IMG/VR virus record: IMGVR_UViG_3300030202_001323
Coordinates: 4,857-42,811 of that record
DNA from: a virus
DNA length: 37,955 nt
Reading direction: 5' to 3' (one strand)
In this document: piece by piece, positions 1-13,839 of the stretch
Numbering within the stretch: position 1 is the first letter of the stretch
Layout: every line of letters starts with the position of its first letter
The notes under the pieces: generated by a model
The model's database searches: none
The model's input: the letters and a program-made list of their open reading frames with translations, nothing else
Told to the model about the DNA's origin: nothing
Position numbers and translations under genes: made by a program

Positions 1-228
1 GCTCATGCCATAAATTTTGTTAACGTCGTGCTGGTTTTCAGGCACTTCAGTATAATATATTGCTGATTCGTCAAGAATAAAGTCAAATATAATCCTTGAG
101 TTATCTGGGTGATTTATAAATGTACCAGAGCTATGCTCACCTTTAGGTATAACATAAGTTCTAAAGCCAAGATCGTCAACTTCTTTACTGCAAGAAACAA
201 AAAAAAGAAGTATCAGAAGTTTTTTCAC
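1..228 (-). CDS. Partial small lipoprotein, GTG start, runs off left edge
   Basis: An open frame of 76 codons starts at GTG (226-228) and continues without a stop to base 1, so the C-terminus lies outside the window. The GTG shares its G with the TAG stop of the preceding gene (TAGTG), a tight junction like others here. The N-terminus is Lys-Lys then a run of Leu/Ile/Phe ending in the lipobox FVSC followed by SKEVDD, a typical lipoprotein signal with Cys at about residue 13. The mature part (for example IIFDFILDESAIYYTEVPEN) looks beta-rich and has no family I recognise. The lipoprotein call rests on the signal alone. A function in the infected cell envelope is inference. Confidence 0.62.
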   Translation of the reverse strand, partial: MKKLLILLFFVSCSKEVDDLGFRTYVIPKGEHSSGTFINHPDNSRIIFDFILDESAIYYTEVPENQHDVNKIYGMS

Positions 229-452
229 TACTGAGAGTCTCTAATAGCTTTTTCTGTTGGATAATCTTTATCTCCAGGCTTAGCTGGTGCTTCTCCTCTT
301 TTTCTTTTAGCATGTATTCTATCCCACAAACCTATTTTCTTTGCAGGTGATGTACAGTGTGCATCTAAAGGAGAGTTTGTTTTTTCTCTATCAGCATTAC
401 ACATGCAGTTAGCTCCGTAAAAAGAACTACCTTTCATTTTAAAATTGTTCAT
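228..452 (-). CDS. Small basic Cys-containing protein of unknown function
   Basis: This 74-residue protein begins MNNFKMKGSSFYGANCMCN, has a CxC pair near residues 16-18, another Cys near residue 33, and a Lys/Arg-rich C-terminal half. The KMKGS start and an SPL motif resemble small proteins I have seen in Bacteroidota phages, but I cannot assign a function. It follows the 464-937 gene after 11 bases. That gap is part of a run of A residues on the coding strand with no Shine-Dalgarno sequence. The next gene overlaps its stop by one base. An SPL plus Cys arrangement also occurs in the upstream neighbour, so the two may be distantly related or bind the same ligand; that is speculative. Confidence 0.6.
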   Translation of the reverse strand: MNNFKMKGSSFYGANCMCNADREKTNSPLDAHCTSPAKKIGLWDRIHAKRKRGEAPAKPGDKDYPTEKAIRDSQ

Positions 453-463
453 ATTATTTTTTT

Positions 464-937
464 TTAAGATTTACCTTTGTTTTTTCTACAAAAAGACGCA
501 GCAGCCTCTCTACTACCAAAGCCCCATTTTTTTAAAGCCATAGCGTAAGGTGTTGGTTCTCCTTTAGCATTTTTCATACTACCTTTCATACCCGCAAATC
601 TACAAGCAAAACTAACTCTACGTGGGTTTGTACCACTAGTTTTTCTGTCGCCAAGAGTTTTACCTGTTTCAGACTTGTGTTTAGACCTCATTTTTTTATT
701 TCTTCTTTCGTAAGCCTCTTCCGTTATTTTAACGCTTGAGGCTTTTTTACAGCTACCAGGTGCACAAGGCTTTGTACCAGGTACTCTTTTATAACCGTCC
801 CAGCAGTTACACTTTTTAGCTAACGGTGAATGGTCATAACCTTTTTTACCGTAAGATATATGTTCTTCGTAGGTTTTAGCCATTACGCTTTTACCGTCCT
901 TGTACATTTTATGTGGCTTAAAATTTTTTTTACTCAT
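464..937 (-). CDS. Basic Cys-rich hypothetical protein
   Basis: I chose the ATG at 935-937 (MSKKNFKPHK), giving 157 residues. An in-frame GTG at 947-949 would add four residues and overlap the upstream gene. The ATG lies one base after the upstream stop (TAATATG). The middle holds a Cys cluster (KKCNCW, then two more Cys around PCAPGSC) that could bind metal. The C-terminus is a compact basic module containing ACRFAGMKGSM and KKWGFGSREAAASFCRK. The whole protein is strongly positively charged, so nucleic-acid binding is possible but unproven. I do not recognise a named family. It lies in a run of small accessory genes after the virion genes. Confidence 0.6.
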   Translation of the reverse strand: MSKKNFKPHKMYKDGKSVMAKTYEEHISYGKKGYDHSPLAKKCNCWDGYKRVPGTKPCAPGSCKKASSVKITEEAYERRNKKMRSKHKSETGKTLGDRKTSGTNPRRVSFACRFAGMKGSMKNAKGEPTPYAMALKKWGFGSREAAASFCRKNKGKS

Positions 938-938
938 A

Positions 939-1262
939 TTAAAAATCACTCATTAATTGATTATCTATTTCTTCTTGTATTTCTTTTCTTGTAGCTACCA
1001 TCTTAAAACTAAGATCAGCTTGAAACCTAGCTACTTCTTCTCCGTCTTTAAATATTATAATAGTAGGTATAACTGCTATTTTATGTTTTTTAGCCATTTC
1101 AGCCTGTGTACCTATATCTACGTATGATATTGTTTTACAGTCTTTCAAGTCCATAACCCACGGCACGTGATTAGCTTTGTTCCACTCAGCGTTAAACTGA
1201 GCTATTTGTATTTGACTAAAAGCACTATTACATAGCAGCATTAGTATTATAATGTATTTCAT
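939..1262 (-). CDS. Secreted thioredoxin-fold protein lacking the CxxC motif
   Basis: The 107-residue protein opens with a signal peptide (MKYIIILMLLCNSAFSQ), probably cleaved near residue 16, so the mature part should be periplasmic or extracellular. The rest follows the thioredoxin pattern: a strand and FNAEW at the place of the active-site helix, then EMAKKHKIAVIPTIIIFKDG with the cis-proline at P66 and the glycine turn after it. The two catalytic Cys positions after W27 are Asn (N28-K-A-N31), so redox activity of the usual type is not expected. One Cys remains at residue 42. Its ATG overlaps the stop of the next upstream gene (ATGA). A binding or scaffolding role in the envelope is inference. 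Confidence 0.72.
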   Translation of the reverse strand: MKYIIILMLLCNSAFSQIQIAQFNAEWNKANHVPWVMDLKDCKTISYVDIGTQAEMAKKHKIAVIPTIIIFKDGEEVARFQADLSFKMVATRKEIQEEIDNQLMSDF

Positions 1263-1537
1263 CTGTTATATAGTTTGTCCTCTATTTTTTCTAAAGTTTT
1301 CTTTATTTCTTCAACGTCTTTTTGTGTGTCCATAATAGTGTTACGAATCATTTGATCTTTCATATCAAATTCCATACGCGTAACTTCAGGAGTAACAACA
1401 GGTAGTTCTTTTGCTTCTGCAATATCAGCTTTTAATGTAAACCACATACCTATTAACGTTGACAGCGCAACACCTATTGCTATTAATGTTTTTATGCTTA
1501 TTGTAAAGCCAGTGTTTTCGTTTAATTCTTTTGCCAT
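1259..1537 (-). CDS. Single-TM membrane protein with C-terminal coiled coil, holin-like candidate
   Basis: This 92-residue protein has a polar start, one hydrophobic segment at about residues 15-35 (KTLIAIGVALSTLIGMWFT), and a charged C-terminal helix from about 55 to 90 with heptad-like spacing (KDVEEIKKTLEKIEDKL). The size and topology fit small phage membrane proteins often placed near lysis genes. However, a single TM plus coiled coil is not diagnostic of a holin, and no endolysin is visible nearby. It starts two bases after the upstream lipoprotein gene and overlaps the next gene by four bases. Alternatives are a spanin-like or superinfection-exclusion membrane protein. Confidence 0.6.
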   Translation of the reverse strand: MAKELNENTGFTISIKTLIAIGVALSTLIGMWFTLKADIAEAKELPVVTPEVTRMEFDMKDQMIRNTIMDTQKDVEEIKKTLEKIEDKLYNR

Positions 1538-1539
1538 TG

Positions 1540-2628
1540 TTAAAATATTGTGTAGTTTATTCCAAATTTAAAGTCGTACCACTCTCTATTCCAGTACTTA
1601 TTATATTTACCTTCAAAAAAGTAACCTAAGTTTTTATTTTGTTTTATACCATAAATTAAACCTGCAGAATAATCGTACCACTGCTCACCATCATTAAAGT
1701 TATGATATGAAAACTCGTTACCACTATCATAGTGATAAGGCATAACATTACCCCAAGCATGCAGCCAGTTTGATTTACTATATCTATAGTAGTCAAAACC
1801 AATTACAATTGAATGTTGCATTATTCTATCTAGCTCGTTTCTTTTTCTCTCTGTATAATCAGATAATACTTCAGGTATAACTACAGTTTCCCAAACCTCA
1901 GCGCTTGTAGCTACAACTTCACCAGCAGGATTTGTATATATTGAATTAGCAACATCTACATTGTAACCTTCTTGTAAAGCTAAATAAGTATAATGTAAGC
2001 TACCGTTATTTAACATCCACTCATCAAGCGGGTTGTAACCGTAAGGTTCAGCTAGCCTATGTGCTAAGCCAATATTCCAAGATAAGTTTTTATGTTTTCT
2101 ATATCTATATCTTTCTGATGCCTCAAAGTATTTTACGTCAGCAAAACCATCTTCTAAGTATTCTAGCTTTAATGCAAAAAAGTTTATACAAACCTCGCTT
2201 TCACAACCATCATCAGAACTCCAACGCATAAAATGATGTTGATCCATGTAATCTACACCTTCTTGTCTTTTGTAATCTACTTCAAATAAATATTCTAAAC
2301 CTCTAACTTTACCAACTGTAGCAGCATCGCTGTAGTTAGTTTCTGTACCATCGTAAAAAGACTTGCCTTTACTTTCATAACCAAACCTAGCTATTTTACG
2401 TAAGCCAACTGTAAAGTTATAATCGTAAGGAGTAGATATTGTGCTTGTAGATAAACCATTGTCTACAGAAAATACTTCAACATCAGATAATGATGTACCA
2501 CCATTTACAGCTGCGTAAAACGTAGAAAACTTTAACAATGATTTTAAGTCTATATCTTGACTACAACAAGATTTTGGTGCAGCACAAGATGTTATTATTA
2601 TTAATAGTAATATTAGTATTTTCTTCAT
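1540..2628 (-). CDS. Predicted lipoprotein with outer-membrane barrel-like features
   Basis: The 362-residue protein starts with two Lys, a strongly hydrophobic stretch and a lipobox ITSC (Cys15), then a second Cys cluster (SCC) at about residues 20-22. The rest is rich in Tyr, Trp, Phe, Asp and Asn in alternating patterns. The last residues, FKFGINYTIF, end in Phe with alternating aromatic/hydrophobic positions, as in the C-terminal beta-signal of outer-membrane barrels. A lipidated N-terminus together with a barrel-like body is unusual, and the signal could instead be an ordinary cleaved one. It lies immediately after the giant ejection gene. It might alter the infected cell surface, but function is unknown. 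Confidence 0.6.
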   Translation of the reverse strand: MKKILILLLIIITSCAAPKSCCSQDIDLKSLLKFSTFYAAVNGGTSLSDVEVFSVDNGLSTSTISTPYDYNFTVGLRKIARFGYESKGKSFYDGTETNYSDAATVGKVRGLEYLFEVDYKRQEGVDYMDQHHFMRWSSDDGCESEVCINFFALKLEYLEDGFADVKYFEASERYRYRKHKNLSWNIGLAHRLAEPYGYNPLDEWMLNNGSLHYTYLALQEGYNVDVANSIYTNPAGEVVATSAEVWETVVIPEVLSDYTERKRNELDRIMQHSIVIGFDYYRYSKSNWLHAWGNVMPYHYDSGNEFSYHNFNDGEQWYDYSAGLIYGIKQNKNLGYFFEGKYNKYWNREWYDFKFGINYTIF

Positions 2629-2658: not shown

Positions 2659-5600
2659 TTACTGGTGAGCGTAGCACTTACCAGATTTATTTTCAGTTCT
2701 ATTTTTACATCTTGGTCCTTTACCTTTTCTTGTCTTAGCAGAGCACTGAACTTCTCTAGCTTCTTTTTCTTTTCTAAGTCTTTCTTTTTCTTTTCTTCTT
2801 TCTTCTTTTTCCTGTTCTTTTTCTTGTCTTCTAATTTCTTCAATTTCACCTCTAGCATTTATAACTTCTTGGTTTCTTACACCAACATCCCAAGTGTTCC
2901 AACCAAGTAATAAAGCTATACGCTGCCAGTTATCGTTATTACTATTACCAACCTCGCGTAAGTTCATAATTTTCTTATATAATCTATCTGTAGGTATATT
3001 TGTTAAAGCAGATATTGTTTGAGTAACAGGTGACCATATAGGATTATCTATATCAAAAGTGTCCATGTGATCAATTTCTCTACGTTTAAACTTGTATGTT
3101 CTAAGACCAGTATTTACTTTTCTAACTTTACTACCAACAGGTGGTGACAACTGTAGCATTTCCATTATTATAGCAGCTGTGTCCATACGAAAACCTTTTT
3201 TATCTTCTTCAGCAAACTTAATAATCATATTTTTAAGAGTAGAAGCTATTGCGCCAGCAACCCCGATACCACGTAGTATAGAATCTATTGAGCCATTTAC
3301 TAATCTAAATGTAGCTCTTTCTTTTTCTTTTTGTTTTTCACCTTCAGTTTTTTCTTCATCATCATCAAACATAAATCTAAACAGAGCTTGTTGTAGCGCA
3401 CCAAATATTAAGTTCTGTGCAGCGCCGTAATATAATATTTTTGATATGTTTGTTTTAGCATCACCTCTACCATTTTTTAAATCAAGAAAAGCTTTTTTAG
3501 TTAATCTAGCATACTGCATTGGTGTATTTTGAAAAGCAAGTATTAACCTACCAAGTGGTGAAGCTTGTTGTGATGAAATCATATCAGGTCTAGAAGACTG
3601 TTGAGTTTCTTCAGTTATCTTTTGAAAGTCTGTAAATGCTTGTGCTTCTGCGTCTGCTTGTGACATACCGCTTTTTATTAACGACTTAACTCTATTTCTA
3701 TAGAACGTGGCACCACCAGAAGCAATAGCAAAGCTATCAGCTATTTGTGTAGGTAAGAAACCAAACTCTAATAACTTTTGTAACAAACCAGATACACCAC
3801 CGTTTTTATATGCTTGTGCTATTTCACTTTCACTAACAGATCTTCTATTACCAGCACGTCTTTGTTTAAGCATATCAGAGTTAAATAAAAACGTAAAGTC
3901 TTTCCAAAATTGTTTTTGATTTGCAAATGCAGCTGCAGCTTTTATAGGATTATTGTCTGACCAGTTTATAAAGTTTACTGTTGACAATGTCTGTAATACA
4001 GCTGATCTACCGTTAAAAAACATGATAGCACCAACAGAGTTGTTAACCCAGTTTGTAAACTGATTAGTTAACTTGTTAGTACCAAAGTTTCTATTACTGC
4101 CATTTTCCATACGCCATAATATATCTTCCATAGCGTCTCTCCAATTAGTACCAAGCGCAGCTTCTAACTTATTCATCAAAGGCCCGTTTAATCTACCACC
4201 TTGCCAATCACCAAATAATTTTTTTCTATTTTCAATAAACTCAGTAAGCATACCAGTTCTATTTTCACCCATAGTTATACCATGAAGATCTTGAGGTATT
4301 GAGCTAGTTAACCAAGCGTTTGTAGGTTCTATGTAACTAGGTGATTTAGTTATTTTAGTAATACTATCAGCATACTGTTGTAACTCAGGTTCTTTGTTTA
4401 TTTCTTTTAATATAGCTTTTTTATCAGCTTCAGATATACCAGGTATTTCAACACCAGCTTTATCCCACATATAAACTCTTAATCCTTGATCGTAAGTAAA
4501 CTCTGTTCCAGGTATTTTCTTTTTTAGTTTTTTCTTAACTTTAGGAAAAGCCTTGTTTAAGTTTTTAAGATCAACAGATAAGCCTTGAGCCATATTACTT
4601 ATTTGCTGCATACCTCTTGAGTATGGATCAAACAACGCATCTTTAAAAAACTGCATATCAGCATCACCTTTAGCTCCTTTACCTAGTAGTGGATATAATA
4701 AGCCCTTAAAATCTTCTGCACTAGGCGGTATGAAAAATTTCCATTTACCTTTTTTACCACCAACAAGTTTTGCCTTTGCATCAGAATAATCTTTATACTC
4801 TGCAATACCTAAGTTTCTTGAAATCATTTCGTTTAACTTAGTAGGATCAGCTTTACTTCTTAATGTTGTTCTCGCTTGTCTTACTTTTGACTTAACATCA
4901 AATTGATCTAATATATTTTTAACAGCTTGTACATTTTTTAATGCGTCATCAGCAAAGTAAAAGTCATTATAACCTTCAGCTGCTTTATCAGCAACCCATA
5001 ATGCTTTAGCTTCAGCTGTAGAATTACCAAGTCCAGTTATATTTTCTATAGGTATGTTTAAGCCATTGTCTTTTAAAAACTTGTGTATAGCTTTTTGAGC
5101 CGCAGGTGGTCTAGCTGTTAATATAAATATATCGTTAGTACCAAACTTAGCTGCTAGCTTTTTAGCTTTTTCAAATAACGGTGCAATTTTACCATCAATA
5201 ACTTTGTTAAACTGTGAAAAATCAAACTTATAACCAAGATCAGCTAAGTTTTCATATTCAGCAGCATACTCTGCAGGTGTTAACGTACCTGTTGTACCGT
5301 CTGGTCTTGTAAACTCAACTAGAGATTTACTTGTAGCAAGTGTGTCATCAAAGTCTAATACACTTATACCTTTAGCATCACCTTCTAAATACTTTTGTTC
5401 TAGAGCTTTACTTATAATATTATCTTTTTGTATGTTTTCTTTTGATCTTAAAACTTTTATACCAGCTTCTTTTAATAAAACAACTTCAGCTGCAGGCTTA
5501 CCAGACACGTGAACAACTCTATCTAATATATTTTTTGGCAAAGCAAGTGTTAATCTTCTGTGACCCTCTCTACTTGTTCTACCTAACTTAGTGTCAAGTA

Positions 5601-8600
5601 TTTTATCCATAACAAACTTAGGACCAAAGAACTGAGTATGATCTTCTACTATATCAGCAAACACTTGATCGTTATATTTACCAGAAACTATAGCAGCAAA
5701 CAAGTCACTGTTAGTATTACCACTAGCGGCTAGATGCTCGCCTTTAATTGTTAGATCAGCGTATGTAGCTTTGTGCGCAGCTCTTTTTAATGCTTTACCT
5801 TTTAAACCTTTTTTCTTAAAAGTAGCTGTATTTTCTTTCATGCGCTCAGCATAAAAATCAAACTTACTTAATTTATCTACCCAAGCGTTATATGCTTTGC
5901 TATCAGTTTTAACACTGTCTTTTATATTTTTAAACTTGTTAGTATCTATAAAGTTACCTTGCATAAAATACTCTATAGCACTCAAAGCTCTTATACCTTT
6001 TACTATGTTTGTTTGCGTTTGAAAAAATGTAAACAAATCTATACCAGATATGTCACCAGCTTTGTAAGCTTCGTTTAGCTTGTCAATTAAATATTTTAAA
6101 TGACCTATGTTAGATGTATTAGCTGCAGATATTTTATCACGCACTGTGTCTAAGTGATCAAGAGCAGCTTGCATATCTCCTTCACTATGTAGTATAGGAG
6201 AATAAATGTCAACTAGTTTTCTGTTACTCTTGTTAGCAGGTAGTATGTCAGCTTGAACGTAACCAGTAACCTCGTTAACTAGCATATCCATAACTTGCGC
6301 TCTGTCATCTGCAAAAGGAGCTTTGCCATCATATTTAGCTGAGTTCATTGCAGAATCTAAAGCTCTACTAAAATAACCAAACACATCAACACCACCAAGA
6401 CTATTTATAAAAGACTGATCTATATTATACTTGTCAACAAAGTTTTTTATTGCATTATTATATCTTACAGCGTTGTCGTTTGTTTTCTTATCTTTGTTTC
6501 TTAATCTATAACCACCTTCTTTTATCGCGTCTTTTATTTTACTAGGAACATCAGCGCTGTCTAAAGCGTTTTGTATTAATCCTATGTTTTCTTTTGTAAT
6601 ACCCTTGTTAATAGCTTGTTCTTCTATATGCGCAAGCAGCTCACTAGAGTTAGTTAGCATAGCAGACATATCTCTATAAGCCTTGCTATCAAAACCAAAC
6701 CTAACACCAGTTTGTATTACTTGTTCTAAGTTAGGAGCAACACCATTCATAAAGGCAGACATGCCTAAGTTTTTACTTTCTTTACTTCTTAGCACAACAC
6801 CTCTTTCAACTTGTTCTATAGCTTGAGCTGTTAAGTTATCAGCTTGTACACCATATAAAAGCTCTTGCCTAGACTTAAACATGTTAGCTATATCACTATC
6901 ATTTTCCATGTTAGCTCTAAACTGTTCTAAACCTATTTCTTGAGCCATAGCTCTAGTTAACGTGTCAAGACCACCTCTTCTAAGCTCTGTCATTGTAGTA
7001 CCATTAAAAAACTTTTTAATAATATCAACAGAAGTTATATCTGTCATAGCTTTAGGATTACGTCTAATTTTTTGTTTACCATCAGTCATACCTTTGTAAG
7101 GACCTTCTTCGCTTGATCTATAAAAGTCTACTTGACCTGGTTTTGTACCTTTAGTTCTACCAACATGATCTGTTGTCCATACCTTAGTACCGTCTTCTTG
7201 TATAACTAGTTTTTGTACGGCTTTAGGCATATTTTTAGCTAACCAAGTGGTTGGCATGTGTTTTAATATAAGAGCTTTGTTTTTAGGATTTTTTAAAAAC
7301 ATTTCAATCTCTTGTGGTGTTTTACCCATAGCAGCTTCTATAGTTTGCTGTATAGGATTTTTTTCTGCATAAAACTTCTTTTTTAATTCAGAAACTAAAG
7401 GACTGACTGTAGCATTTTTTCCTTTTTCAGCTGTAATGCTAGGTAAAATACCTCCTAAAGTTAACTGGACTTCATCTAAGACAGTTTTTAATCCTTCTGG
7501 TGTTAACGCTAAGCCATCAGTAAAATCTGTTGTTCCTTCAACAATATTTCTATCATCATCTAAATTTATATCTGTATCGTCATCAGTAAGAACTCGATTA
7601 GCGTTGTCTAAATCTGTTGTAAACACTTGATCAATACCTAATCTTTCAGCTAAGCTGTTTGCTCTAAGGTTTAATCTATTACTAACAAACGCGTCTAAAC
7701 TTTGTTTAGAAGGATCGTATTCATTTTGTATCATAGTAACAGCTTCTGAAAACAAACTGTCTATATAATCTTTTCTTGTTACACCTTTTCTATTGTCAAT
7801 ACTTATAGGATCAAACAACCTTTTAGCTATGTCATTCATTATACCACCTATTTCGTACTCTAAAGCACTTACTTGATTGGCATCACCAGTCATTGGTTCG
7901 CCATTGTAATCAACTTTAAGCATATTGTCAAGCATAGCTTTAACATCAGCTTTAGTTGCTTTTTTACCTTTGTAACCCTGCTCTAACACACCTTGTAAGT
8001 TACTAGATCTTTTTACAGTTCTACCATCTTCAGTTTGTAAATCTTTACCTTTTCTTTTATCTATTCTTCTTTTAGTTAACTTACCTACCTCACCTTTGTC
8101 AAAAGACTTCATGTGATCCGCTAAATAAGCAGCGGCATTTGTCGGTGTGTCAGTTTTAAAATCAGCGTTATATAAACCTTGAGCTCTTTGTAAAATTGTA
8201 GGCTTGTTAGAGTACAACTTGTCTTTATATTTTTTATACTGTTTTCTTTGTATAGCATCTTGTACGTAGTTACCATATTCTTGATGAGCTATTTTTGGTT
8301 GTTGCTCCCATGGCAATGGCATACCGTTTTTGTCATATAATAAATGCTTGTTACCTTGTAATCTCTGCATTGCCTCAACATGTATAGGCGCTGCGTTCTC
8401 AGCTGTCCATGCGGCTAAATTACCAGAGTATTCTATTAACTCCTGAGTATCAAAAGCTTTAGCGTCTGTAGCGTGCTTTACTTCATGTGAAAATACAGTA
8501 CCTTGTGTTAAGTTACCTTCCTTAAGATTTTTAGCTGCAGCTTTAGCGTCTGTAACAATATACTTACCACCAACAATAACACCAAAACTTTCTCCAGACT

Positions 8601-11600
8601 CTACTTCAGCTATAATATCATCAGCGCTTTCATCTGGATTAAGCTCACCATTTTCCTCCATCTGACGTATATCTTCAACAAAACCTTTGTCACTAACTTG
8701 AACTATTTGTAAACCTTCTAATCTTTTATCACCTAAAACTGATTTAGCATTTATTTCTTGATCTATATTTCTAGATATAGCTTCAGCTTTAAAACCACCA
8801 AACAATCTACCGTAACGAAGATAAGCTTCGTCTTCAGCTTCTCTTTGTTGTTTAGTTCTTCTTTTATCTCTCATTATATCAACGCCGCCGTATAGCTGTG
8901 TTTCAACCATAGCTTTTATACCTTTATCTTTTTTAGCGTCTTTTATAAATTTATTTTCTATTTGTCTTTTTGCCTCTTGATGAACCTTTGTAGCTCTTTG
9001 CTGGTCATTCATTTTTTTATAATCAGCATCAGTCTTCATTAATCTATTATGAATACGAGTACCTCTGCTACCCCAAGCTCTATGACCATCTTTGTAATCT
9101 ACACTTTCAAGTAGCTTTTGTCTTCTTTCTTTAGCATCAGCTAATCTATTATCATAGCTTTTTTTCTTATCACCTTTTAAACTATCAGAATATTCTTTAA
9201 CTTTTTTATCGATAACAGCTTGTGAATCACCAGGCGTAACACCAGCCTCGTAGTTTAGCTGATCCATTACCATACCGTTTTTCATTAAACGCTCAAGGCC
9301 TTTAGCACCCATTAACATACCAGTCATTTCCATACCGTCTGTAAGAGTTGCTAGTTTGCTTTTTTCTTGGTTTAAGTCGTATGTTATTAAGTCTATATCT
9401 GATTGTGTTAGATTAGTATCTTTGAGCTGATTTTTATATTTATTAATTTGATCTTTAGTTTCAAAATATACTTTTCTATTATCAGAAGTATTCATACGCT
9501 GCATTATAGAGCTATAAGCTAAACTAGGACCGTTCATTGCACCACCTGTTAAAACAGAGGCAGCTATTACATCACTCCAACCTTCAGATAAATCCATGTC
9601 TCTGTCAAGAAATATAGACTCAGAAGCCATATCACCAAGATGTATTAAGCTTTCTTCAACAACCTCACCACCAGTTCTTTTAATACCTTCACCAGCTACA
9701 CCAGCATAATAAGCAAAGTTCTTTTTAGTAACAGCTGCTAATATATCATCTGCTTGTGACGTGCCTATAATACCTTTCATTAATTTACTAGCGTTAGGTA
9801 TTGTACCTAAGGCAAATGCCACACCACCTTCAATAACACCAGCTGCTATCGACGCTTTAAGTATATCGTTACTTGACATATCACCTAAAGCTTTTTGCTC
9901 TTCAAGATTAGCTTTTGTGTTTATATAGTCTTCATAATCCATGTAATCTTTATTGAGCTCTAACATTTCAAGTTGCCTTTTTGCTTCTTCAGCAGCACCA
10001 GCTTGTATTGTAAGATCTGCATATTTAGATGTACCAGAGTTTAAACCAAAAGCACTAGCTGTTATAGCGCTGGCCACAGTAGCGCCAGCACCAAAAGCGG
10101 TACCAACACCCTGGGTAGCGACGGCCAGCATTACGTTTGGAGCTTGTTGTGATAAAGTTATTAAACTGTATCTACCTTTTTGACCTGTTGCTAAAGACGT
10201 ATTGTAATCTAAAACAGCCTCGTAAGCATCTGCACCAGCCTGTCTACTTTGATGCATGTTTATAGCGTTTTCACTACCAAACAATATTGGTACGGAGTAA
10301 CCTATACTAGCACAAGCACTGTTAAATTGATCTAGCATTATATTACCAATATCACCTTCTCTATTAGCAACGTCTTGTATTTTTGAATGTTCTTGATTAG
10401 TTTTTAACCAGTTTTTATATCTATTACTTTCAACAGTTATAGTGGTGTTGTATTTGTCAAAAGTTTCTTTTTCTCTTTTTCTAATCTTATTAAACATTGG
10501 TTGGTATTTTTCTGCGTTATTACCTTTGGCAATATACATATTCATACCTTTTTCATCTTTTTTAACTTCAACAGTTACACCATCTTTTTTTGCTTGTTTA
10601 AATATATCTATAGCGTACCTATAATCTTCATCACTTTCTGTTTTAAAATCTTTTTTAGCGTTATCTAAATTAGTATTTATAGATTCTTTTTGCTTATATA
10701 AATTTTCTACTTTAACTTCACCATCCTCACCTTCAACAGCTACTATGCCTGCTCTACCATTATACCTTACAATTAACTGGTCATCACCTTCTCTTAATCT
10801 TTCAGCATACTCAGCGTTCCAAACCTTTTCATTGTCTAATAAGTTTTGTTTACTTATAGATTTATTAAACTGTTCTTCTGAATTTTCTTTTGCTTTATCA
10901 AATATAGCTTGACCTTCAGGGCTTAATGAGTTTCTAACCTCGTCAGAAAACAAAGTATCAACTCTTTGTTGTTCCCAATTATCAACTGGCTCAAACTCAC
11001 CGTCATCAGAAACAATAGGTTTGTTTAAGTAGTTATTAAGCACTTTAATATCTTCTTCTGAAGCACCTTTCATAAGTACCTTAACGTCGTTATATTTTTG
11101 TTTTGATTTTGCATAGTTAGCTTTTGACAAAGACATGTCAACACTATACTGAGGGTCTTGCTGTATGTTTTTTCTTATTTTATTTTGACGCACAGCAGCT
11201 TCGTGGGCCATTTCAGAAAACTTAATTCTCTGCTCTTCAGTATAATTATCTCTATTAGATAAATACTGTTGCAACTCTTGTGGATCAAACTCACCTTCTA
11301 TAGGTACACCATCTTTACTTATACCATAAAGTTGTTGTTTACCTTTTTTTTGATTATATAAAGGGAAAACGTTAATACCTATTTCGTTATAACCCTTGTT
11401 GGCTCTTGCCAAATCATCTCTTTCAATAGCATTTGGAACAAAAAAGTTACCTTGAGTATCTACACCTGTAAACAGGTTCATACCAATACCGTTCTTTTTT
11501 ATAACCTCTTGTTGACCTTTAGCCCACTGGTTAAAAACATTAAACTGATCTACGGCTTTTTGCCTATCCGCCTCTCCGTTAGGGTTTAAATTAATTTTTA

Positions 11601-12015
11601 TACCCGGAAAAGAAGGTTCACCTGTACCTGTTATTACTAGTTCATTACCACCACTACCACTAGCTTGTGCTGTAAAATCAACTCTTGGATAAAGTTTCTT
11701 TAACTCAGCTATCATTTGATCTTCGTCTTTATTAACCCAAGTTTTTACATTATCAGGGTGAAAATCATTTGTATAACCAAGCTTTGCTACTCTTTCTTTT
11801 TCCCTTGCTTCTGCTTGTTCTATTTCAGTATTGTTTTCTTTTACTTCTTTCTTTTCTTTTTGTGTAGGTGCAGTTGGTTGTGCCGCGTAAGCAGCCTGCT
11901 TTCTTTTTATAAAAGCATCAATCATAGCTTGAGCTTGCGGTATAGGAACTCTATCCGCTTTCATTTTCGCTATTGCGTCTCTTAATATTTGTTGATCTTG
12001 AGAATTTAAATTCAT
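2659..12015 (-). CDS. Giant multi-domain internal virion/ejection protein candidate (polyvalent-like)
   Basis: At 3118 residues this is the largest gene here and occupies the position of T7 gp16, following gp14-like and gp15-like genes with a TAATG overlap. Visible parts: hydrophobic, Gly/Ala-rich segments at about 615-660, 715-745 and 815-830; a zinc-protease motif HEVKH (H1177, E1178, H1181); a complete HAD hydrolase motif set with DFDDT (D2221, D2223), LTARP (T2300) and ADD (D2356, D2357); more hydrophobic segments at about 2860-2935; a Lys/Glu-rich helix; and a terminal Cys/His cluster (C3091, C3103, C3114, H3117). Such mixtures are known from phage polyvalent proteins, which enter the host with the DNA. 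Delivery with the genome and the roles of the domains are inferred. No transglycosylase motif was recognised. Confidence 0.72.
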   Translation of the reverse strand: MNLNSQDQQILRDAIAKMKADRVPIPQAQAMIDAFIKRKQAAYAAQPTAPTQKEKKEVKENNTEIEQAEAREKERVAKLGYTNDFHPDNVKTWVNKDEDQMIAELKKLYPRVDFTAQASGSGGNELVITGTGEPSFPGIKINLNPNGEADRQKAVDQFNVFNQWAKGQQEVIKKNGIGMNLFTGVDTQGNFFVPNAIERDDLARANKGYNEIGINVFPLYNQKKGKQQLYGISKDGVPIEGEFDPQELQQYLSNRDNYTEEQRIKFSEMAHEAAVRQNKIRKNIQQDPQYSVDMSLSKANYAKSKQKYNDVKVLMKGASEEDIKVLNNYLNKPIVSDDGEFEPVDNWEQQRVDTLFSDEVRNSLSPEGQAIFDKAKENSEEQFNKSISKQNLLDNEKVWNAEYAERLREGDDQLIVRYNGRAGIVAVEGEDGEVKVENLYKQKESINTNLDNAKKDFKTESDEDYRYAIDIFKQAKKDGVTVEVKKDEKGMNMYIAKGNNAEKYQPMFNKIRKREKETFDKYNTTITVESNRYKNWLKTNQEHSKIQDVANREGDIGNIMLDQFNSACASIGYSVPILFGSENAINMHQSRQAGADAYEAVLDYNTSLATGQKGRYSLITLSQQAPNVMLAVATQGVGTAFGAGATVASAITASAFGLNSGTSKYADLTIQAGAAEEAKRQLEMLELNKDYMDYEDYINTKANLEEQKALGDMSSNDILKASIAAGVIEGGVAFALGTIPNASKLMKGIIGTSQADDILAAVTKKNFAYYAGVAGEGIKRTGGEVVEESLIHLGDMASESIFLDRDMDLSEGWSDVIAASVLTGGAMNGPSLAYSSIMQRMNTSDNRKVYFETKDQINKYKNQLKDTNLTQSDIDLITYDLNQEKSKLATLTDGMEMTGMLMGAKGLERLMKNGMVMDQLNYEAGVTPGDSQAVIDKKVKEYSDSLKGDKKKSYDNRLADAKERRQKLLESVDYKDGHRAWGSRGTRIHNRLMKTDADYKKMNDQQRATKVHQEAKRQIENKFIKDAKKDKGIKAMVETQLYGGVDIMRDKRRTKQQREAEDEAYLRYGRLFGGFKAEAISRNIDQEINAKSVLGDKRLEGLQIVQVSDKGFVEDIRQMEENGELNPDESADDIIAEVESGESFGVIVGGKYIVTDAKAAAKNLKEGNLTQGTVFSHEVKHATDAKAFDTQELIEYSGNLAAWTAENAAPIHVEAMQRLQGNKHLLYDKNGMPLPWEQQPKIAHQEYGNYVQDAIQRKQYKKYKDKLYSNKPTILQRAQGLYNADFKTDTPTNAAAYLADHMKSFDKGEVGKLTKRRIDKRKGKDLQTEDGRTVKRSSNLQGVLEQGYKGKKATKADVKAMLDNMLKVDYNGEPMTGDANQVSALEYEIGGIMNDIAKRLFDPISIDNRKGVTRKDYIDSLFSEAVTMIQNEYDPSKQSLDAFVSNRLNLRANSLAERLGIDQVFTTDLDNANRVLTDDDTDINLDDDRNIVEGTTDFTDGLALTPEGLKTVLDEVQLTLGGILPSITAEKGKNATVSPLVSELKKKFYAEKNPIQQTIEAAMGKTPQEIEMFLKNPKNKALILKHMPTTWLAKNMPKAVQKLVIQEDGTKVWTTDHVGRTKGTKPGQVDFYRSSEEGPYKGMTDGKQKIRRNPKAMTDITSVDIIKKFFNGTTMTELRRGGLDTLTRAMAQEIGLEQFRANMENDSDIANMFKSRQELLYGVQADNLTAQAIEQVERGVVLRSKESKNLGMSAFMNGVAPNLEQVIQTGVRFGFDSKAYRDMSAMLTNSSELLAHIEEQAINKGITKENIGLIQNALDSADVPSKIKDAIKEGGYRLRNKDKKTNDNAVRYNNAIKNFVDKYNIDQSFINSLGGVDVFGYFSRALDSAMNSAKYDGKAPFADDRAQVMDMLVNEVTGYVQADILPANKSNRKLVDIYSPILHSEGDMQAALDHLDTVRDKISAANTSNIGHLKYLIDKLNEAYKAGDISGIDLFTFFQTQTNIVKGIRALSAIEYFMQGNFIDTNKFKNIKDSVKTDSKAYNAWVDKLSKFDFYAERMKENTATFKKKGLKGKALKRAAHKATYADLTIKGEHLAASGNTNSDLFAAIVSGKYNDQVFADIVEDHTQFFGPKFVMDKILDTKLGRTSREGHRRLTLALPKNILDRVVHVSGKPAAEVVLLKEAGIKVLRSKENIQKDNIISKALEQKYLEGDAKGISVLDFDDTLATSKSLVEFTRPDGTTGTLTPAEYAAEYENLADLGYKFDFSQFNKVIDGKIAPLFEKAKKLAAKFGTNDIFILTARPPAAQKAIHKFLKDNGLNIPIENITGLGNSTAEAKALWVADKAAEGYNDFYFADDALKNVQAVKNILDQFDVKSKVRQARTTLRSKADPTKLNEMISRNLGIAEYKDYSDAKAKLVGGKKGKWKFFIPPSAEDFKGLLYPLLGKGAKGDADMQFFKDALFDPYSRGMQQISNMAQGLSVDLKNLNKAFPKVKKKLKKKIPGTEFTYDQGLRVYMWDKAGVEIPGISEADKKAILKEINKEPELQQYADSITKITKSPSYIEPTNAWLTSSIPQDLHGITMGENRTGMLTEFIENRKKLFGDWQGGRLNGPLMNKLEAALGTNWRDAMEDILWRMENGSNRNFGTNKLTNQFTNWVNNSVGAIMFFNGRSAVLQTLSTVNFINWSDNNPIKAAAAFANQKQFWKDFTFLFNSDMLKQRRAGNRRSVSESEIAQAYKNGGVSGLLQKLLEFGFLPTQIADSFAIASGGATFYRNRVKSLIKSGMSQADAEAQAFTDFQKITEETQQSSRPDMISSQQASPLGRLILAFQNTPMQYARLTKKAFLDLKNGRGDAKTNISKILYYGAAQNLIFGALQQALFRFMFDDDEEKTEGEKQKEKERATFRLVNGSIDSILRGIGVAGAIASTLKNMIIKFAEEDKKGFRMDTAAIIMEMLQLSPPVGSKVRKVNTGLRTYKFKRREIDHMDTFDIDNPIWSPVTQTISALTNIPTDRLYKKIMNLREVGNSNNDNWQRIALLLGWNTWDVGVRNQEVINARGEIEEIRRQEKEQEKEERRKEKERLRKEKEAREVQCSAKTRKGKGPRCKNRTENKSGKCYAHQ

Positions 12016-13176: not shown

Positions 13177-13839
13177 TTATGTTTGTTGTTGTTTCCAGAA
13201 AGGGTTTTGGAAGTCCATTTTACCTCCTACACCACCTGTTAATGCATTAGTAACACCACCTGCAGCGCTTGTTATTCCGTCCCACTTTGCTTGATTAGCA
13301 GCCTGCTCTTTCATATTTGCTGCTTGCATGTCTGCAGCATCCATACCCATAAGCGTAGCTATTTTACTTTCTTCATCTTTTCTTTTTTGAACTTCACCTC
13401 CTATCTGCTCGTCTTGTATTCTACTAGCCTCAGCTCTTTCTAGTTGTTGATTAGCTTGTTCTTGTTTACCAATAGATACAGAAGCGGTCTTAGCATCCAT
13501 AGAACCTTGATTAGCTAGCGTTTGTGCTAACGCAGCTATACCAGAACTACCTGCTGATTGTTTCATTTGGCTTAATATGTTTGCTTGGTTTTGTTGCTGT
13601 TGCTCTCTCATGAACTCTGCTTCTTGTTGGTTAACTGTTAGATCTTCCATTTTGTTTTCCATGTTCATGTAAGGATTACTAGTGTCTAAAGCTGCAAATT
13701 GTGCTTTTCTTTTATTCATTTCTGCCTTTGCCGCAGCAGCTTCAGCAGCAGCAGCTTTCTCTCTTTTATTAGCACCAATAGCTTTAGCTACACCAGCACC
13801 TACTGTTACAGCAGCAGCACCGACTAGTAAAAAACTCAT
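13177..13839 (-). CDS. Ala/Gln-rich internal virion protein (gp14-like)
   Basis: The 220-residue protein starts with a hydrophobic Gly/Ala/Val segment (MSFLLVGAAAVTVGAGVAKA), then a long Ala/Glu/Lys helix and a Gln-rich central region with many predicted helices. It ends with a Gly-rich stretch. A hydrophobic N-terminus followed by Ala/Gln-rich helices is the usual look of T7 gp14-type internal virion proteins, which insert into the outer membrane at ejection. Its place directly before the gp15-like and giant genes supports the call. The sequence itself is low-complexity, so homology cannot be claimed from it alone. Confidence 0.65.
   Translation of the reverse strand: MSFLLVGAAAVTVGAGVAKAIGANKREKAAAAEAAAAKAEMNKRKAQFAALDTSNPYMNMENKMEDLTVNQQEAEFMREQQQQNQANILSQMKQSAGSSGIAALAQTLANQGSMDAKTASVSIGKQEQANQQLERAEASRIQDEQIGGEVQKRKDEESKIATLMGMDAADMQAANMKEQAANQAKWDGITSAAGGVTNALTGGVGGKMDFQNPFWKQQQT

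Follow-up and report, generated by a model that had tools for sequence, protein, structure and literature searches.

The virus record IMGVR_UViG_3300030202_001323 of the IMG/VR collection carries a cassette of four genes for envelope-targeted proteins, and we tentatively propose, with somewhat less than even confidence, that this cassette encodes an export-and-display module by which a phage would, at a late stage of infection, cover its host cell with a repeat protein. The stretch of DNA that was analysed, hereafter the window, comprises 37,955 nucleotides and corresponds to bases 4857–42811 of the 42,811-base record; its left flank is contained in L002 (G000:1–8500), in which the window position equals the L002 position minus 4856. 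The cassette lies on the minus strand and consists of the genes for a 362-residue exported protein predicted to be an outer-membrane β-barrel (OMP, 1540..2628), a 92-residue protein with one transmembrane (TM) segment and a coiled-coil-like tail (TMcc, 1259..1537), a 107-residue secreted thioredoxin-like protein (Trx, 939..1262) and, outside the window, a 743-residue secreted repeat protein found in the left-flank sequence (SPrep, L002:2298–4529). The four-gene set was not met among the papers listed in literature searches, as judged by title and start of abstract, and it suggests a so far unstudied route by which phages may remodel the surface of the bacteria they infect.

Recurrence of the Four-Gene Cassette

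The cassette is a recurrent gene set common to uncultured phages of several unrelated kinds, and hundreds of stretches in a single public collection match it. A search of IMG/VR with the 362-residue OMP sequence gave 487 matching stretches; the 80 best of these, with 72–94% identity, make up set A (L006–L085). A search with a distant homologue, namely a 49%-identical OMP homologue in a contig of a Nitrosopelagicus metagenome-assembled genome (MAG; L166), gave 546 stretches, the best 80 of which form set B (L169–L248), the overlap between the 487 and the 546 stretches being uncounted. Two further sets were obtained with TMcc and Trx as baits; the four sets share contigs, and the bait gene is present in each by selection. 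All four genes are found in every locus with complete flanks, that is, in 24/24 loci of set A and 22/22 of set B (8 kb on each side) and in 44/44 of the TMcc-bait and 37/37 of the Trx-bait set (6 kb on each side). Without the flank condition, when truncated loci are counted as well, the barrel, TMcc, Trx and repeat-protein genes are present in 80, 75, 73 and 52 of the 80 set-A loci, in 80, 71, 70 and 74 of the 80 set-B loci, in 70, 79, 76 and 62 of the 79 TMcc-bait loci, and in 73, 79, 79 and 60 of the 79 Trx-bait loci, respectively. When loci are limited to those that extend 1.5 kb or more beyond the barrel gene, the barrel–TMcc–Trx trio is confined to 6 kb of a single strand in 65/65 loci of set A and 69/77 of set B, and is strictly adjacent in 52/65 and 57/77, respectively. 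In the 8 set-B loci in which TMcc and Trx are missed, OMP is no more than 4 kb from the left end of the locus, and so the upstream pair could be cut off. Set B rules out that the cassette is an oddity of the window lineage.

The first-pass annotation, made from the window sequence, had described four of the six genes after a gene for a giant protein as coding for exported or membrane proteins, and had read them as an envelope-remodelling or lysis module. This description is borne out. On the minus strand 3′ of the gene for the 3118-residue giant protein, there are open reading frames (ORFs) of 362, 92, 107, 157, 74 and at least 76 residues in this order, and hydropathy analysis (best 9-residue mean above 2.5) assigns a signal-type or TM N-terminus to those of 362, 92, 107 and at least 76 residues, at the positions first given for them; the trio and the repeat protein are conserved together in all complete-flank loci. 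When the left flank is included, a hydrophobic N-terminal segment is found in 5 of the 9 minus-strand ORFs after the giant gene against 1 of the 20 from the giant gene upstream (Fisher p = 0.0055).

Cassette pieces were also seen in contigs binned as Nitrosopelagicus (an archaeon) and Maricaulis MAGs (L166, L167 and L168), which are probably mis-binned phage contigs.

Carrier Phages and Virion Types

Sets A and B together hold 160 loci, and 46 carrier records were picked from these for length (37 from set B and 9 from set A). A T4-type gp23 capsid protein is encoded in 7 of the 46 and a tail sheath in 11. The terminase family of the window is present in 28, with 17 strong matches (E-value (E) of 1e-127 or better), 7 matches at 1e-51 to 1e-68 and 4 weak ones; the 7 mid-strength records are 88–120 kb long, and the 4 weak ones are gp23 carriers. 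The one mid-strength terminase that was checked has a crAss-like phage as its best GenBank phage match, at about 25% identity, and the one carrier gp23 that was checked is 60% identical to that of Flavobacterium phage immuto. The carriers include window-type podoviruses, gp23/sheath myoviruses and 88–120 kb phages with a crAss-like terminase. Since the cassette occurs with unrelated virion types, its function is unlikely to depend on the virion type. The trio directly follows the giant gene in the window and in several set-A loci, which would be in keeping with virion or DNA-ejection components in which the trio and the giant protein form an injection channel. However, the cassette stands in other gene neighbourhoods in the gp23/sheath myoviruses and the phages with crAss-like terminases, which disfavours a part in the virion, and the signal sequences would mean that the proteins are exported through Sec by the infected cell and not packaged. 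An injection channel is therefore highly improbable.

The portal and the terminase of the window each match 87 GenBank records (68 Flavobacterium phages, 15 Cellulophaga phages, 2 Tenacibaculum phages, 1 Maribacter phage and 1 uncultured genome), and the three relatives inspected have an annotated peptidase/endolysin gene on the far side of the terminase. The first-round profiles of the trio found nothing in the stretches fetched from GenBank relatives (L003–L005), and tblastn searches with OMP (E up to 0.1) and TMcc (E up to 1) gave no match in 50,697 GenBank phages. A divergent barrel from a 114-kb carrier likewise had no match in the GenBank phage records, and Trx gave weak partial thioredoxin matches there and nothing more. 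In the four contigs that appear in both the barrel and the portal match lists, the barrel is 75–80% identical to that of the window versus 65–68% for the portal.

Predicted Barrel Structure of OMP

OMP has a signal sequence, 12 predicted strands, an insert of about 75 residues at residues 194–268 and a C-terminal Phe. The AlphaFold2 model of OMP, built from 85 homologues, shows 12 long strands with a mean predicted local distance difference test score (pLDDT) of 73.3, including poor stretches, and a predicted template modelling score of 0.64; it comes from a wider alignment and superseded an earlier model with a mean pLDDT of 56.6. The best structural matches of the model are EstA (Z 15.1, root-mean-square deviation (rmsd) 4.0, 204 residues aligned), KdgM (Z 14.5, rmsd 3.2, 167 aligned) and NalP (Z 14.4, rmsd 3.8, 196 aligned). 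Because the structural matches (Foldseek against PDB and VIA) are generic barrels, they indicate a barrel and not a function. PorP/SprF entries are not among the structure matches listed, which is no evidence of a difference. The viral model A0A516LKJ4 resembles an OMP relative (E = 1.2e-19, 22% identity), and the OMP profile has 0 matches at E up to 1 to the sequences of solved structures.

OMP homologues are 52–94% identical to the window protein. The lipobox of the 362-residue protein is not a family trait: lipobox-like sequences are found in 47/81 homologues of set A and 10/80 of set B (57/161 in all), which rules out a conserved lipoprotein family. All homologues have a hydrophobic N-terminus, and the conserved traits are export and a predicted β-barrel. 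Other lipoproteins (family 32) are encoded near the OMP gene in 8 loci.

Trx and TMcc

Profile searches assign a thioredoxin fold to Trx, with a match to Pfam Thioredoxin (E = 8.4e-6) and profile matches to solved thioredoxins from 4.2e-7. Pro-66, which we take to be at the cis-Pro place of thioredoxins, is present in 145/145 members. While Trx shares the fold and this Pro residue with the thioredoxin superfamily, it differs from it in that both active-site Cys positions hold Asn in nearly all members (Asn-28 in 144/145 and Asn-31 in 137/145). One other Cys, Cys-42, is conserved in 125/145. A CxxC motif occurs anywhere in only 7/144 relatives and, in all seven, within the N-terminal signal region, so that Trx lacks a redox-active CxxC motif.

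TMcc consists of one N-terminal TM segment and about 55 further residues, whose charged tail is coiled-coil-like and highly conserved, and its gene shares 4 bp with the start of the next one. The alignment of 29 diverse homologues contains 24 invariant columns, with identities of 53–96%, and 57/69 homologues in set A and 47/68 in set B are above the hydropathy cut-off. The conserved tail of TMcc and the Asn pair of Trx provide specific residues for mutation.

The Repeat Cargo and Its Tail

SPrep has 37 Cys residues in 743 residues and a hydrophobic N-terminus. By the same hydropathy cut-off, the N-terminus is hydrophobic in 52/53 cargos of set A and 54/54 of set B. The sorting domain of the type IX secretion system (T9SS), Por_Secre_tail (PF18962), is matched by 22/42 cargos at E up to 0.1, and TIGR04183 by 2 of the 4 cargos tested (1.5e-10 and 9.2e-9). 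The tails of 147 distinct complete cargos comprise 63 of the YPNP type, 13 more that match the YPNP profile, 69 of a short TDxLGR type and 2 of neither type. The cargo gene is directly upstream of the OMP gene in 51/77 set-B loci, and the two genes overlap in 43. With identities to the window cargo of 37–93%, the cargos are more variable than the barrels or TMcc.

This variability, together with adhesin-like cargo domains (MAM in 6/42 cargos and one CBM match; TSP3 is found in 6/42 as well, all at E up to 0.1), would agree with a host-surface "moron" that changes how infected cells adhere, aggregate or bind particles, to an ecological benefit, and that has no direct part in lysis or exclusion. 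However, no bacterial donor is evident, since a barrel-profile scan of genome contigs, covering two peptide patterns only, gave three MAG contigs of 3.8–11.7 kb, and the recurrence of the four-gene set among late genes argues for a core phage role, making a moron of this kind quite improbable.

Proposed Mechanism of Export and Display

In Flavobacterium, an SprF-like gene is commonly found directly downstream of the cargo gene (PMC12618676, in part), and the SprF-like protein is thought to anchor its cargo (PMC9143113, in part). The cassette resembles such SprB–SprF/PorP-like pairs in having a large repeat-rich cargo with a barrel gene directly downstream in the majority of set-B loci and a Bacteroidota-type sorting domain in many phage cargos. 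It differs from them in that its barrel falls outside PorP/SprF by profile and has 12 rather than 14 predicted strands, the tail of the cargo is either shortened or type A-like, the set includes two further envelope proteins, and phages carry the whole of it. The recurrent repeat protein, its frequent T9SS tail and its set-B place upstream of the barrel fit best with a cargo and its shuttle. The joint presence of the four genes in every complete-flank locus, the variability of the cargos and the range of carrier phages also speak for export and display.

Several observations weigh against an SprF-like display pathway. No PorP/SprF family is matched by OMP at E up to 1 in Pfam or at E up to 0.1 in NCBIfam, and the OMP model shows 12 strands, whereas 14 are reported for PorP/SprF in the part of PMC9143113 cited here. 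Type A cargos are reported, in the cited part of PMC12618676, to use PorV and not a private shuttle. In the window, SPrep has no Pfam or NCBIfam sorting-domain match; its tail is of the short TDxLGR type, a putative sorting tail that resembles the full domain weakly (hhalign probability 12%, E = 0.0024, against 0.4% for a reversed control), and the SPrep tail itself matches the full-tail profile at E = 0.32. The cargo gene is directly upstream of the OMP gene in only 1/65 set-A loci and downstream in 51, and it is not directly upstream in the window. Six Trx-bait loci have no barrel gene; two of these are cut at the left end, and the other four contain the giant homologue, TMcc, Trx and the repeat protein. 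Because these four are 33–50 kb fragments with no barrel anywhere, OMP may be dispensable. Given the lack of a PorP/SprF match, the lack of a sorting-domain match in the window and the non-adjacency in set A, OMP may work like a shuttle of this kind rather than be one.

A plausible model of export and display is that the four proteins, judging from their signal or TM sequences, would enter the envelope through Sec, and that Trx and the inner-membrane-anchored TMcc would hold the Cys-rich, repeat-rich cargo in the periplasm. The cargo would then exit through the T9SS translocon of the host or, where the tail is reduced, perhaps by another exit, and OMP, in the manner of SprF with SprB, would receive or anchor it at the cell surface. 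The genes have a late place, often next to lysis genes, which suggests that the coat may be made just before the cell lyses. The likeliest purpose of the coat would be that receptors on the dying cell and on its debris are masked, which would keep other phages out and spare the progeny from being lost. Whether phages use host type IX secretion to recoat the cell before lysis is a testable question.

Phage genes with T9SS sorting domains have precedents. The phage-borne T9SS cargo of Cryophage is called a unique occurrence (PMC7468147, in part), and sorting domains have been noted near BACON genes of phage contigs (PMC6949934, in part). Those cargos are reported to be enzyme, PA14 or BACON proteins, and the parts of the two papers cited here mention no barrel, coiled-coil or thioredoxin partner.

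Phage proteins placed in the host outer membrane, some of which alter adsorption, include Lom of lambda, Lc of PA-2 and Llp of T5, and OMP shares with them that it is a phage-encoded outer-membrane protein. To our knowledge, these three are single genes, and we know of no cargo, coiled-coil or thioredoxin partner for them.

Lysis Genes near the Cassette

The main rival of the export-and-display module is an outer-membrane lysis module that substitutes for spanins, in which an i-spanin-like TMcc, freed by the endolysin, would engage OMP and/or the secreted proteins and rupture the outer membrane. The first-pass annotation had put the cluster in place of a recognisable endolysin–spanin set and had pointed to the sequence beyond the left edge, where an M15 endolysin gene is present. 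This gene (163 residues, L002:1850–2341, minus strand) ends 2.5 kb left of the window in the same strand and gene run as the cluster and overlaps the SPrep gene by 44 bp. Its product matches phrog_894 "endolysin" (E = 1.3e-28) and Peptidase_M15_3 (PF08291; E = 1.9e-12, 47.7 bits with a cut-off of 23.2), and HxxxxxxD and HxS motifs, which we take to be those expected of an M15 endolysin, are visible in the translation. Because this gene lies in the left flank, the cluster does not replace an endolysin. Of the two signs that together were to count against the first-pass reading, a standard lysis cassette elsewhere and a lack of conservation, the second is absent: there is an endolysin gene, yet the block is highly conserved.

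Lysis genes were sought in the 46 carrier records by M15, Amidase_2 and phrog_3427 (holin), and 41 have at least one. The barrel gene is within 5 kb of a lysis gene in 25/41 records against 8.7 expected by random placement, a number reached in 0/100,000 draws, and within 8 kb in 30/41 against 12.6 expected. These figures are biased upward because Amidase_2 and phrog_3427 were chosen after being seen beside the cassette, and they count close relatives as independent. Of the families chosen afterwards, lysozyme PF00959 is found in 1/46 records (G008, 5.3 kb from OMP, with an amidase match there too) and muramidase PF11860 in 0/46, the latter having no working control as it matched nothing in the control genomes either. 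In several carriers the cassette has an amidase endolysin or a holin gene next to it; the nearest detected lysis gene is 25–89 kb away in 7/41 records (G002, G017, G019, G024, G026, G035 and G036).

The single TM segment and helical tail of TMcc are the build expected of an i-spanin, although, at about 55 residues, the part predicted to lie in the periplasm is short. Like lambda Rz/Rz1, the cassette combines a predicted inner-membrane TM segment and periplasmic helical tail with another protein at the outer membrane, and an endolysin gene is nearby in many carriers; unlike Rz/Rz1, the outer-membrane protein is a predicted barrel of about 360 residues, mostly with no lipobox, and a repeat cargo recurs. 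TMcc matches the Rz-like family phrog_739 at E = 0.14; since this family matches 7/49 records but also 9/14 control genomes, it is uninformative as a spanin detector. No spanin was found in 91/677 phages (about 13%), including Bacteroides and Croceibacter phages (PMC6139136, in part), and the cited part of PMC8776804 lists no spanin for the cultured relatives Calle and Gundel, but it gives predicted spanins for the flavobacterial phages Ingeline and Nekkels. The secreted repeat cargo has no clear place in a lysis module, which on balance seems somewhat unlikely. How Bacteroidota phages with no recognisable spanins break the outer membrane is a testable question in its own right.

Export, display and lysis might also be joined in a new class of trans-envelope machine, in which TMcc, a redox-dead Trx and a private barrel would form a dedicated cargo export-and-anchor path on infected Bacteroidota, borrowing or bypassing the T9SS and doubling as the outer-membrane lysis step in phages with no recognisable spanins. 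Such a machine is unlikely.

In the records with a window-type terminase designated G038–G046, the lysis genes are split: a 3-TM holin of phrog_3427 is found in 8/9, at a distance of 29–46 kb from the barrel gene, and seven of these eight holin genes lie no more than 4 kb from the terminase gene, whereas the M15 endolysin gene is 4–12 kb from the barrel gene in 9/9. A holin candidate is encoded near the cassette in 28 loci (24 of set B), namely a small membrane protein (family 9; L230:10573–10824) in which a NEKxxVGF-like stretch is conserved; the member tested has no PHROG match at E up to 0.05.

Neighbouring Genes

The giant protein gene (2659..12015, minus strand) is directly upstream of the OMP gene, presumably at the end of the structural run. 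Its product matches nothing in Pfam at E up to 1, none of its PHROG matches is better than E = 0.008, and its C-terminus is a Cys/His-rich motif, CSAKTRKGKGPRCKNRTENKSGKCYAH, with a similar end in the giant homologue of L307. Among the 20 minus-strand ORFs of the structural run, the 220-residue protein encoded at 13177–13839 alone has a hydrophobic N-terminus and is possibly an internal virion protein.

The trio is followed on the minus strand by the gene for a 157-residue basic DUF6321 protein (464..937; DUF6321 match at 1.1e-7), a filler that is common, though variable, in the stretch from the trio to the repeat-protein gene, gene order differing among loci, and by the gene for a 74-residue Cys-containing protein (228..452), another variable filler with PHROG matches of unknown function (best 3e-11). 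The sequence at 1..228 on the same strand, listed at first among the genes for exported or membrane proteins, is only the N-terminal part of a lipoprotein gene that runs into a run of 10 N at L002:4847–4856, just left of window position 1. The 80-residue ORF at L002:4526–4768, one of the nine minus-strand ORFs counted above, is probably the second half of this gene, an intact relative of which codes for 183 residues (L006:10702–11253). A Tad8 match of the 76-residue fragment (5.8e-4, below the cut-off) was not used, since the intact relative has no Pfam match at E up to 0.05.

Beyond the M15 gene, L002 carries plus-strand genes, including a probable ribonucleotide reductase fragment (PF02867, 0.0032, below the cut-off). 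At L002:784–1669 (plus strand) are the genes for a 136-residue exported barrel-like protein (weak matches below the cut-off), a 75-residue membrane protein, which is a possible holin, and a 64-residue Hc1-like protein; these three genes point towards the cassette and are its neighbours again in set-A relatives such as L007, L013 and L071.

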